Of a stretch of DNA of 64,000 nucleotides, positions 14,191 to 24,547 are shown in pieces; position 1 is the stretch's first letter, and each line of letters opens with the position of its first letter. The stretch comes from Verrucomicrobiia bacterium (GTDB lineage: Bacteria > Verrucomicrobiota > Verrucomicrobiia > Opitutales > Cerasicoccaceae), in NCBI GenBank assembly GCA_030432235.1, contig JAUIHT010000001.1, positions 930,001 to 994,000 on the forward strand, written 5' to 3'. Under the pieces are notes generated by a model. It was not told the DNA's origin and did not search any database. It worked only from the letters and a program-made list of their open reading frames with translations. Made by a program: the position numbers and the translations under genes.

Positions 14191-14206
14191 GCGTGGAATA
14201 ACGCTA

Positions 14207-14313
14207 AACGCTGAACGCTTAGTGCTGCCAGCAATCAGTATGAGCGTCATTCCCACCCATGAAGGCACGAAACCCGATACACAGTCCCGCATCAGCGCTT
14301 AGCGTTCAGCGTT
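14207..14313. repeat. Inverted-repeat module at the gspG-gspH junction
   Basis: Bases 14207-14227 pair with 14293-14313: 21 positions with one mismatch and one G-T wobble, around a 65-nt loop. The gspH start codon (14259) lies in the loop and the right arm codes for the gspH prepilin leader. Each arm is built from near-tandem words of the type ACGCTGA / GCGTTCA. A second structure of the same style occurs at the next junction. Confidence 0.75.
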
Positions 14314-14855
14314 CAGCGTTTACTTTGTTCGAGGTACTGGTCGTCATCGCCTTCCTGGCGGTGATTGCGGGCATCGTGACCATCAACTTTGACCGGATTA
14401 TCCCTGCTGTGCAGGAGAAACCGATGGATCGGGTCTTCGTCGAATCGCTCCAGGAAGCCCGCCTCCTGGCCTCCACCAGTGGAAATGAGGTCTACTTCAG
14501 CTTCGACCCGGAGGCGGAGGCTTTCAAGCTGGAGGAGCGCGCCCGGAGCATGCCCGTCACAGAGGAGGAAGAGGACTACGACGATTTGGATACCACGGTC
14601 GAACCGTCTTACCAGAGCTACAGCTTCGACAAGGCGGACCGCACCGAGGTGCTCTTCTACAAACGCCTGTCTCGTTCGAGTGGCTTTGGCGCCAGCCGCG
14701 ACGAATATTCCGCCGAACCGATCAAGCACCTGGTCTTTCACCCCAGTGGCGCGGCTACGCCTGCCCGTGCGGTTATTCGCCAACCGGGCCTGGAAGACAT
14801 CGAGGTCGAGCTGGACGCCTTCAGCTCGGGACCGCTTGTAAACGATGAAAGATAA
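14259..14855 (+). CDS. gspH: GspH-like minor pseudopilin
   Basis: A 198-aa prepilin-type protein: leader MKARNPIHSP...QRSA, then FTLFEVLVVIAFLAVIAGIV with Glu5. The following region (PMDRVFVESLQEARLLASTSG, VYFSFDPEAEAFKLE) matches the GspH pattern in which an early helix leads into a beta-sandwich. Position after gspG agrees. It is acidic in the centre (EEEEDYDDLD). The leader is encoded by the loop and right arm of the 14207-14313 inverted repeat. The last codons overlap the gspI start by 11 nt and lie inside the next inverted repeat. Confidence 0.85.
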   Translation: MKARNPIHSPASALSVQRSAFTLFEVLVVIAFLAVIAGIVTINFDRIIPAVQEKPMDRVFVESLQEARLLASTSGNEVYFSFDPEAEAFKLEERARSMPVTEEEEDYDDLDTTVEPSYQSYSFDKADRTEVLFYKRLSRSSGFGASRDEYSAEPIKHLVFHPSGAATPARAVIRQPGLEDIEVELDAFSSGPLVNDER

Positions 14856-14980
14856 AAGCAGAAAGATAAATTTGATGTGGGAACGTAGACCAGTCAGTAC
14901 CTTTCTTTTGCGCGGAAAAAGGGCAAAGTCCTGTGTGTTTTTTCAGAATTCATCTTCCTGCTTTTATCTTTCATCGTTTA
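14839..14980. repeat. Inverted-repeat module at the gspH-gspI junction
   Basis: Bases 14839-14861 are an exact 23-nt reverse complement of 14958-14980. With one mismatch the pairing extends to 14867 and 14952 (28 of 29). The loop is 84 nt. The left arm contains the gspH stop and the proposed gspI ATG; the right arm lies within the gspI leader reading frame. Arms show purine-rich near-repeats (AAAGATAAAAGC / AGAAAGATAAA). Such a perfect long stem inside a coding junction is unusual. Confidence 0.85.
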
Positions 14981-15441
14981 TTTCTCGGCGTTCAGCGTTT
15001 AGTCTCATCGAGGTCCTAGTGGCCCTGGCTATTTTCGCCCTGGCGGTGGCGGTCCTGGCGCAGTCGGTCACCAATGCCATCTACGGCCTTGAGGTGGTCA
15101 AGAGCGACTCGCACAAGGCGCAGTTGTACCGCTTTGCCCTGCGCCAGATTCTCCGTATCGAAGACCGTGAGGAGGTCGAGGACGGTGGCTCCTTTGAAAC
15201 GCCGGAAGATGGTCCCATCGACTGGTCCGTGGAAATCGAGGATACGGAGATTCTCGACCTGTTTCAGCTCACCGTCGAGCTGTCCCTGGCCGATGAGGGA
15301 GGCTCGGCCTTTGAGCGTGAAACCGGCCACATGGAGAGCCTTTATGTTTACCGGCCCAAATGGTCCGATTCCATTGATCGGGAATCCCTGCTGACGGATA
15401 AGCGTGATGCGCTCTCCAACGAAAGGCTTAGCCCGCGATGA
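14845..15441 (+). CDS. gspI: GspI-like minor pseudopilin
   Basis: The mature part begins at ISRRSA|FSLIEVLVALAIFALAV, a standard type IV prepilin site with Glu5, and continues with NAIYGLEVVKS and a short acidic domain, in line with GspI. From the ATG at 14845 the leader would be more than 50 residues; a second ATG at 14875 still gives about 43. Ordinary leaders are 6-30. The extra leader is exactly the segment covered by the 14839-14980 inverted repeat, which suggests it was added by that module. gspJ overlaps the 3' end by 4 nt. Confidence 0.82.
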   Translation: MKDKSRKINLMWERRPVSTFLLRGKRAKSCVFFQNSSSCFYLSSFISRRSAFSLIEVLVALAIFALAVAVLAQSVTNAIYGLEVVKSDSHKAQLYRFALRQILRIEDREEVEDGGSFETPEDGPIDWSVEIEDTEILDLFQLTVELSLADEGGSAFERETGHMESLYVYRPKWSDSIDRESLLTDKRDALSNERLSPR

Positions 15442-22370: not shown

Positions 22371-24113
22371 ATGCTTGAGGATGTCAACAGCATATTGAGC
22401 GCCATCCCCGCCTTTGTCCTGGAGCGCCTGGACGAGGAGCAGCGCGCCGAGTTTTTCGAGCTGGCGCGGGAGGAGCGTGTCAAGTGGCTCTCCGACCTGT
22501 GGGAGGAGCCTGAGGCGGATATCCTTAGCCAGTTGGCCGAGCACGCCGGGCTGCCGGTGTTGCAGCATCTGAATCTGCCGGACGATCCTCGCGCGGGCGT
22601 GCCCCTGCGTATCCTCAATGAATACCGGTGCCTGCCGGTGGCGCCGCCGCCGGGTGCGCCTGAGGACGATCTGCATCTGGTTACCGTCTGGCCCCCGGAT
22701 GGTGTCATGGACGACTGGATTCTGGCCGCCTGCGGCAGGTCTCCGGTCTGGTATCTCGGGCCGCCGCAGAAGGTGTCCGAGACCATCACGCAGGTCTTCG
22801 GGGTCGGTTCCAGCAGCCTGGAAGACCAGGACATGGAGGGCTTTGCCGACTCCGAAAGCCAGGAGGAGGAAGACGAGGACGCCGCGCTCATCCGTTTCGT
22901 CAACGAGGTCATCACCAAGGCAGTGGCCGACCGCGCGACGGACATCCACTTCGAGCCACAACGCGAGGCCCTGCAAATCCGCTACCGCATCGACGGTGAG
23001 CTGGTGCCTGTGCGCGTGCCGGAAAACCTGGTGCAATTCCAGCGGGCCATCATCTCGCGCCTGAAGATCATGGCGAAGCTCAACATCTCCGAGCGGCGTC
23101 GCCCGCAGGACGGCCGCATCGCCTTCAAGCTGCCCGGAGAAGAGTTGGACATCCGTATCTCCTCGCTGCCCACGCTCTATGGCGAGAGTGTTTCCTTGCG
23201 TCTGCTGAGCAACAAAAGCCAGCCGGTCACCGTACAGGACTTGGGTTTTCTCAATAAGGACATCGCGGTCATCGACCGCATTCTGGCACGCCCACACGGC
23301 ATCATCCTGGCCACCGGTCCTACCGGCGCGGGTAAGTCCACCACGCTGAGCGCCTTTCTGCGTCAGGTGCGCGATCCGCGTCGTCGCATCATCACGATTG
23401 AGGACCCGGTCGAATACGAGATCGAGGGCGTCAACCAGGTGCAGGTCCACCACGACATCGGGCTGTCCTTTGCCGCCACCCTGCGCAGTACCTTGCGCCA
23501 GGACCCGGACGTCATCATGGTGGGGGAAATCCGCGACCGCGAGACGGCCGAAATCGCCATTCGCGCCTCGCTGACGGGTCACTTGGTGCTTTCCACGCTT
23601 CACACCAACGATGCGCCGGGGGCGTTGACGCGCCTCATCGACATGGACATCGAGCCGTTCCTCATCGCTTCGTCCGTGGAGATGATCATTGCGCAGCGGT
23701 TGGTTCGCCGTTTGTGCCCGCAGTGCAAGCAGCCCGCCGATCACGAGCTGGCTCACCTGGGTTCCTGCCTGGTCGCCCTGCATGTGGACCCGAAGGAAGT
23801 CCAGAACGGCTATATGCTGCAAAAGCCCGTCGGCTGCGATTTCTGCCGCGGGCTCGGTTATCGCGGTCGCGTGGGGCTGTTTGAGATACTGCGAGTCAGC
23901 GAAGAGATTCACGAAATGATCATCCACCGCAACTCATCCCGGGAAATCCGCGAAGTGGCTGAACGCAACGGTATGAGCACCTTGCAGGGAAGCGGTTGGG
24001 CCCAGGCCAAGCGCGGCATCACCTCCCTCGACGAAATCATGCGCTACGCCGACATCGTGACCGAGGACGAAATGCCGCCGGAGTCGCCGGACGCCACGGA
24101 GCCGAGCAAGTAA
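22371..24113 (+). CDS. gspE: Type II secretion ATPase GspE
   Basis: A 580-aa hexameric ATPase that powers pseudopilus assembly. The N-terminal part resembles the GspE/MshE N-domain. The motor domain has Walker [10 protein letters not shown] (about residues 316-324), the Asp box [20 protein letters not shown], Walker [16 protein letters not shown] and the His box [18 protein letters not shown]. Two CxxC pairs (CPQC and CDFC) form the zinc site, separated by about 42 residues. The gene starts in the AT-rich patch, and its first 30 codons are duplicated upstream (21671). The stop codon abuts the GxxExxY element. Confidence 0.97.
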
Positions 24114-24547
24114 TTTAGCCACAAAGAGGCACAAAAAACACAAGCTCATGAGAGACAGCGATGTTATGGCGAAGTGCGATCTTATTCGAGAGACTGCATT
24201 ACAAGTGCATAACTATCTTAGAAATGGTTTCCTGGAGAAAATTTATGAAAATGCCTTGTCCAATCGACTTCGTAAGCAAGGGATGGGTATTGTTCAGCAG
24301 TATCCACTGAAAGTTTGGGATGAAGACGAAAGTTTATTAGGGGAGTACTTTGCGGATATGTTTGTAGATGGTGTGCTCCTCGTTGAATTAAAGGCAGCAA
24401 AAGGGTTGTCTGACGAGCATACTGCCCAGTTGCTTGGCTATATGCGTGCTTGTCGGCTCAGGCACGGTCTATTAATCAATTTCGGAGCAAAAACGCTTCA
24501 AATTAAGAAACTTGTCTTGTGAATCTTGTGCTTCTTTGTGGCTAAAT
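24113..24547. mobile_element. Putative GxxExxY element with 32-nt terminal inverted repeats
   Basis: Bases 24113-24144 and 24516-24547 are inverted repeats matching at 28 of 32 positions; the outer 22 nt differ at only one. They enclose one small gene (24148-24522) and begin exactly at the gspE stop. The arms are built from near-repeated words such as CCACAAAGAG, GCACAAAA and ACACAAG. GxxExxY genes with flanks of this style recur across many phyla, in my recollection, which suggests a discrete insertion unit; no transposase or target duplication is evident. Confidence 0.6.
24148..24522 (+). CDS. GxxExxY protein (predicted PD-(D/E)xK-fold nuclease-like)
   Basis: A 124-aa protein with the family's name-giving motif as GFLEKIYENAL (about residues 27-37), then VWDEDESLLGEYFADMFVDG, VELKAAKGLSDEHTAQLLGYM and the typical ending GLLINFGAKTLQIKKLVL. 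The D...ELK spacing resembles the active site of PD-(D/E)xK nucleases, but activity has not been shown that I know of. The DNA is AT-richer than gspE and gspF on either side. It sits within terminal inverted repeats and separates gspE from gspF without breaking either. The ATG at 24166 is an alternative start. Confidence 0.88.
   Translation: MRDSDVMAKCDLIRETALQVHNYLRNGFLEKIYENALSNRLRKQGMGIVQQYPLKVWDEDESLLGEYFADMFVDGVLLVELKAAKGLSDEHTAQLLGYMRACRLRHGLLINFGAKTLQIKKLVL

Follow-up and report, generated by a model that had tools for sequence, protein, structure and literature searches.

A heptad-armed hairpin at the gspH-gspI junction is probably a gene-less relative of IVP-carrying insertions

In the window analysed here, that is the whole stretch of 64,000 nucleotides, a long inverted repeat straddles the gspH-gspI junction of a type II secretion operon, and a second, similar hairpin precedes gspH (Table 1). 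The focal element contains the best gspI start and supplies the gspH stop as well as most of the gspI leader, with the final gspH residues NDER encoded by its left arm. The original prediction, which had placed the stop of gspH and the proposed start of gspI within the stem, was right on this point.

Table 1. Coordinates of the features discussed, numbered from the first letter of the window.
Feature	Position	Strand	Remarks
Second element (G-type), left arm	14200..14227	+	after gspG stop
gspH ORF	14259..14855	+	minor pseudopilin; TIGR01708 match weak, below cut-off
Second element (G-type), right arm	14293..14320	+	encodes gspH leader end ..QRSA/F
Focal element, left arm	14839..14872	+	heptads TAAACGA TGAAAGA TAAAAGC AGAAAGA TAAATT; gspH stop and likely gspI start within
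gspI ORF	14845..15441	+	minor pseudopilin
Likely gspI start ATG	14845..14847	+	within left arm, overlaps gspH stop; putative start
gspH stop TAA	14853..14855	+	within left arm
Focal element, loop	14873..14946	+	74 nt, open in gspI frame
Focal element, right arm	14947..14980	+	complementary to left arm, 32/34
Two extra G-type heptads, GCGTTCAGCGTTTA	14988..15001	+	directly 3' of element; prepilin cleavage context (RR)SA/F
GxxExxY element, left arm	24113..24144	+	same window, sister-type element
GxxExxY / PDDEXK_3 (PF13366) coding stretch	24178..24504	+	inside GxxExxY element
GxxExxY element, right arm	24516..24547	+	same window

The exact 23-nt pairing of 14839-14861 with 14958-14980 described earlier is correct in coordinates and count, as is its extension to 28 of 29 nt; the repeat goes on further, to 34 nt with 32 paired. 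By scoring the inverted repeats of the window, we found the focal one to be the highest (score 28), followed by the hairpin before gspH (score 19), and the best repeat outside the gsp operon reached 17. A triplet-shuffled control of 800 kb, scored slightly more laxly than the window (the focal repeat reaches 29 there), yielded five repeats with a best score of 15.5. The focal repeat is far beyond chance. The focal arm is also periodic: among lags 3-14, its self-match is highest at lag 14 (0.75) and next at lag 7 (0.59). RNA folding, one of the checks suggested beforehand, gave a stable hairpin for 14820-15000 (-58.7 kcal/mol, z = -4.3) that none of 200 shuffles equalled, and an Rfam search of the focal region returned sub-threshold matches at chance level, none of them at the gathering score.

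Counted from ATG 14845, the gspI leader before F+1 has 51 residues, and 21 if counted from GTG 14935; TTG 14872, ATG 14875 and TTG 14908 are the other alternative in-frame starts. This leader is encoded by the element together with the heptads downstream of it, and its end (..RRSA/FSLIEV, the slash marking the cleavage site) comes from the G-type heptads GCGTTCAGCGTTTA. In gspH, the leader end ..QRSA/FTLFEV comes from the right arm of the gspH-side element, whose fold reaches -50.8 kcal/mol (z = -3.5). Conceivably, the right arm of the focal repeat could be an ordinary prepilin leader that is complementary to the gspH tail by accident: together with the next heptads it encodes (RR)SA/FSLIEV in frame, and Ala at -1 is not abnormal in this genome, where 7 of the 26 scorable prepilins have it. 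We give such coding convergence practically no chance and rejected it because the arms recur as dispersed copies at unrelated genes, many of which do not encode prepilins. Moreover, as the original prediction had argued for a perfect stem, 32 of 34 paired positions by coding chance are not credible next to a shuffled best score of 15.5.

The junction was then compared among relatives. In the nearest relative (G001), whose gspI is 72% identical, gspH and gspI overlap as ATGA (junction ..GACTATCGATGAGGAAAGCC..), the gspI leader counts 7 residues (MRKATAG/F) and no repeat is present. The g3-type relatives likewise have an ordinary short gspI leader, and four relatives carry a different, unrelated spacer of 70-100 nt without the focal repeat. 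The segment is absent from G001 and from the other relatives whose junctions were read; among the minus-strand loci, this reading covers G001. This comparison, a check set beforehand, supports the earlier suggestion of an insertion that became the gspI leader, and we infer that insertion was the direction of change. The nearest empty site, that of G001, is so diverged that the insertion boundaries are approximate; a target-site duplication was not identified there.

The focal segment has 17 matches in its own genome. Searches with two-heptad patterns gave 56 sites for GCGTTYAGCGTTYA compared to 5 for the backward control, and 60 sites for TCTTTYATCTTTYA compared to 7. By aligning the sites with their own neighbourhood, we found about 25 paired hairpins, with loops of 16-126 nt, in addition to single arms. 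One such single arm on another contig (G000:C4:62774-62805) is nearly identical to the focal right arm (31/32, 97%) and has the same heptad order. The hairpins share the plan AAT(RAAMGMT)4RAATT ... AATTY(AKCKTTY)4ATT, a consensus read by eye from their alignments, and fall into two subfamilies, a G-type with RAACGCT heptads and a T-type with RAAAGAT heptads and one AAAGCAG unit. Orientation is invariant, with the TRAACGC arm on the left and the GCGTTYA arm on the right. The host has 25 exact G-type heptad pairs, compared to 1 in G001 and to 0-1 in the remaining relatives sampled. At G000:C39:364339-364470 (L156), GATGAAA heptads and ACTTTGTT units occur together in the arms of one hairpin, which is possibly a hybrid of two arm types.

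Similarity between loops was at the level of shuffled sequences (best 10 vs 9 shuffled), the focal loop showed no similarity to the other loops, to the intervening-sequence protein (IVP) described below or to Rfam, and comparing the loops with an IVP profile revealed no remnant of the gene.

Heptamer repeats near start codons are known: TAACTGA sets occur there in Beggiatoaceae and sporadically in Cyanobacteria and Bacteroidetes (PMC4679880). The family could accordingly consist of ordinary simple repeats of this kind, or of the STRR kind, with an incidental inverted pairing. We regard this as very improbable, because the inverted order is constant throughout the two-armed clusters and their arms are alike in length, whereas the TAACTGA sets are reported as direct, with a single indirect one (PMC4679880). 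The arrays of the focal family are paired in inverted order and not in direct tandem only.

The copies are also placed in a particular way. Among 26 copies, 20 lie between co-directional genes, 3 between divergent and 2 between convergent ones, and 1 was scored inside a called gene; gene calls came from a simple codon-model script, start positions being approximate. Most arms begin or finish within about 15 nt of the adjacent genes and several supply the stop codon, while 6 of 2000 random 130-bp windows fitted a junction likewise. The focal copy follows the same plan: its inverted arms consist of 7-bp units, and it sits at a gene junction. When 0.8 Mb of contig C37 was searched without bias, most of the best inverted repeats were intergenic, and in many of them the arm sequence had a period of 7 to 10 bp. 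There (G000:C37:1-800000, L246-L285) the short-period arms are of the ACCACGAAA, ACACGGAA, ACGCAGAT, GCGCAAAG and ATTTCAG types, with loops of 17-153 nt. These repeats are apparently gene-less sisters of the elements of IVP and GxxExxY type that are described below.

A regulatory RNA hairpin, selected to set the dosage of the minor pseudopilin GspI by hiding its start, was the other possibility raised in the original prediction. The fold is very stable, a comparable hairpin precedes gspH, and the gspH stop and the gspI ATG are both predicted to be paired (probability of being unpaired at most 0.003, and about 0.001 for ATG 14845). That the stem could hide gspI initiation is thus physically plausible, as a side effect. 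However, the same element lies before many unrelated genes, with loops that are not alike, relatives do without it, and no Rfam family corresponds to it. Furthermore, selection for pairing should have left the two arms of a copy better matched to one another than to the arms of other copies. For the T-type, the median fit was 19.0 within and 19.5 between copies (permutation p = 0.045, an effect of four near-perfect copies, among them the focal one), and for the G-type 16.0 within and 16.5 between (p = 0.33). The arms fit those of other copies as well as their own partner, and compensatory change was not seen. Complementarity of the arms appears to be inherited from the family consensus rather than to reflect covariation. 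A dosage switch is therefore improbable in our view. A recent birth of the palindrome did not show in this matching of arms within and between elements either.

Two sister hairpins (L289 and L290) enclose a gene. First, the T-type hairpin C4:91156-91582 contains an IVP gene at C4:91234-91533. Second, the G-type hairpin C4:94166-94631 contains an IVP gene at C4:94262-94570. Both arm types of the focal family thus flank IVP genes on C4. The enclosed genes encode the four-helix-bundle 23S rRNA intervening-sequence protein (IVP/S23), with matches to PF05635 and TIGR02436, and the real PDB match of an IVP is 2rld. PDB hits of an IVP to TAL-effector repeats were ignored, as their scores add up weak matches to repeats and no single stretch passes by itself.

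Within the host genome, inverted repeats whose arms are periodic also surround most other IVP genes and 3 of 4 GxxExxY (PF13366) genes. In a phylum-wide sample drawn regardless of repeats, and with a threshold score of at least 14, flanking inverted repeats accompanied IVP genes at 22/35 loci and GxxExxY genes at 25/30, compared to 0/30 for prepilin genes, 1/400 for random places and 2/386 for swapped flanks. In nearer relatives the association was 14/24. About one third of the IVP genes lack a clear inverted repeat on their flanks. The arms around IVP genes share the period of the focal family, with a self-match of 0.665 at lag 7 and 0.636 at lag 14 and lag 7 being the best in 18 of 20, and the arm period around GxxExxY genes peaks at 8-10. 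One GxxExxY element lies in the window itself (24113-24547): it has the plan of the IVP elements, and its 32-bp inverted repeat, built of CACAAAG-like units, directly follows the stop codon of the preceding gene.

Similar heptad hairpins are scattered elsewhere, namely in several Chitinophagaceae, in Opitutaceae MAGs, in a Chlamydiae MAG and in Nitrospirae MAGs, a list of phyla that MAG binning could blur although it includes the named isolates Chitinophaga rupis and Niastella populi. Heptads differ genome by genome. No IVP genes were found near the heptad hairpins of other phyla, in loci of up to 8 kb. As separate observations, the loci L174-L228, a SZAS-41 Bacteroidetes MAG among them, hold many copies with arms of up to about 80 bp of NNAACGC heptads, and the relatives G005 and G007 (L361, L378) share an IVP element with identical 30-nt arms, AGATTAAAGTGAGCAAATTAAAAATTAAAG.

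Arms that are specific to a genome, as well as unrelated loops, would also suit an origin in place, in which a heptamer array grew by polymerase slippage and was inverted by template switching across the nascent strand, with nothing mobile involved; according to work by Mrazek cited in PMC4679880, long simple repeats are in many bacteria most often heptamer arrays. Slippage does not predict the strong link with IVP and GxxExxY genes, though, nor does it sit well with the 31/32 copy of the focal right arm in the same heptad order on another contig, with the order and ends (AAT...RAATT) common to arms of different copies, or with the placement at gene junctions. We therefore consider an origin in place unlikely.

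Since sister heptad hairpins carry IVP genes and the 7-bp period of the arms is shared, the focal repeat is best read as an IVP-type element minus its gene. It is in our view likely to be a lineage-specific, gene-less hairpin insertion of the IVS/IVP type, belonging to a dispersed intercistronic family built of 7-bp units. The loops count against this reading, since their lack of resemblance is odd if the whole unit moves. In addition, genome-specific heptads imply that the arms are not simply carried along with the IVP gene.

Under the insertion reading, a T-type copy would have entered the tight gspH-gspI junction in the host lineage, and a G-type copy the gspG-gspH junction. The left arm would have given gspH a stop at once, because the heptads read TRA... 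and 7 equals 1 modulo 3, so that stops come in different frames. The right arm, open in the forward direction, would then have turned into leader sequence. In type II secretion, prepilin peptidase removes the leader. The insertion would have been tolerated because this leader is cut off before F+1. Once transcribed, the 34-bp stem would pair the gspH stop with the gspI start, which may open when ribosomes finish gspH, a translational coupling that would replace the ancestral ATGA overlap. The stem is also likely to be cut by RNase III in the way that rRNA intervening sequences are. The element is presumably mobile, and a role of IVP in this mobility is a guess, given that Coxiella is presumed not to produce its S23 protein (PMC4990558).

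More tentatively, and with rather less confidence than for the focal copy, these elements may belong to a large unnamed class of mobile elements that sit between operon genes as RNA or DNA hairpins with short-period arms. IVP (7-bp period) and GxxExxY (8-10-bp period) would be cargo or helper proteins, gene-less copies would ride along, and rRNA intervening sequences would be copies that landed in rRNA. The arms could be rebuilt from repeat units of the host, perhaps in an RNA-templated step involving the Avd-like barrel of IVP. The IVP fold, a four-helix bundle, is related to that of the Avd protein of diversity-generating retroelements.

IVP and GxxExxY are common orphan annotations, and their systematic link to inverted short-period arms placed exactly at gene junctions gives both an element. 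This link predicts where more elements lie and turns the question of IVS mobility into a comparative test. The focal copy also illustrates a way for a selfish hairpin to lodge in an operon and leave it intact: stop codons come with the arm, as does, in this case, a leader that is cut away. The origin and function of the rRNA intervening sequence and of S23/IVP have been called unclear (PMC4990558). Intervening sequences with S23 ORFs (PMC4990558) and heptamer repeats near starts (PMC4679880) are each known, and joining them is provisionally new: in the open-licence PMC literature, we found no description of the arm sequences, of heptanucleotide inverted repeats in Verrucomicrobia or of IVP together with inverted repeats. 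GxxExxY is named in this literature, in one paper without bearing on repeats.

Several known systems resemble the family in part. REP and REPIN sequences are dispersed extragenic hairpins too; as defined in PMC3733652, REPs are palindromes of 20-40 bp tagged with GTAG or CGTC, whereas the family has arms of 7-bp units and long loops, and its arms open with TAAACG/AATAAACG and carry neither tag. Like MITEs, the elements are short, gene-less, dispersed and lineage-specific with terminal inverted repeats. Unlike MITEs, whose interiors are normally alike, they have loops without a homologous interior, similarity being at the shuffled level. The TAACTGA sets (PMC4679880) and the cyanobacterial STRR share the 7-bp units, the intergenic position near start codons and the patchy occurrence across phyla, but are reported as direct arrays, whereas the family forms paired inverted arrays with a loop and is linked to IVP.

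The family is also close in plan to the intervening sequences of 23S rRNA. Full members carry the S23/IVP gene in the loop, as do the sisters L289 and L290 but not the 74-nt loop of the focal copy, and gene-less short members are known as well. In both cases the site is transcribed DNA and complementary ends form a stem, which measures 28 bp in Coxiella burnetii (PMC4990558) and is comparably long here, where the 34-bp arms pair at 32 positions (z = -4.3). rRNA intervening sequences are cut by RNase III (PMC4990558). The family differs in lying between protein genes in mRNA operons, the focal copy between gspH and gspI of type II secretion rather than in an rRNA gene, in its many copies per genome, and in arms that are made of 7-bp units.
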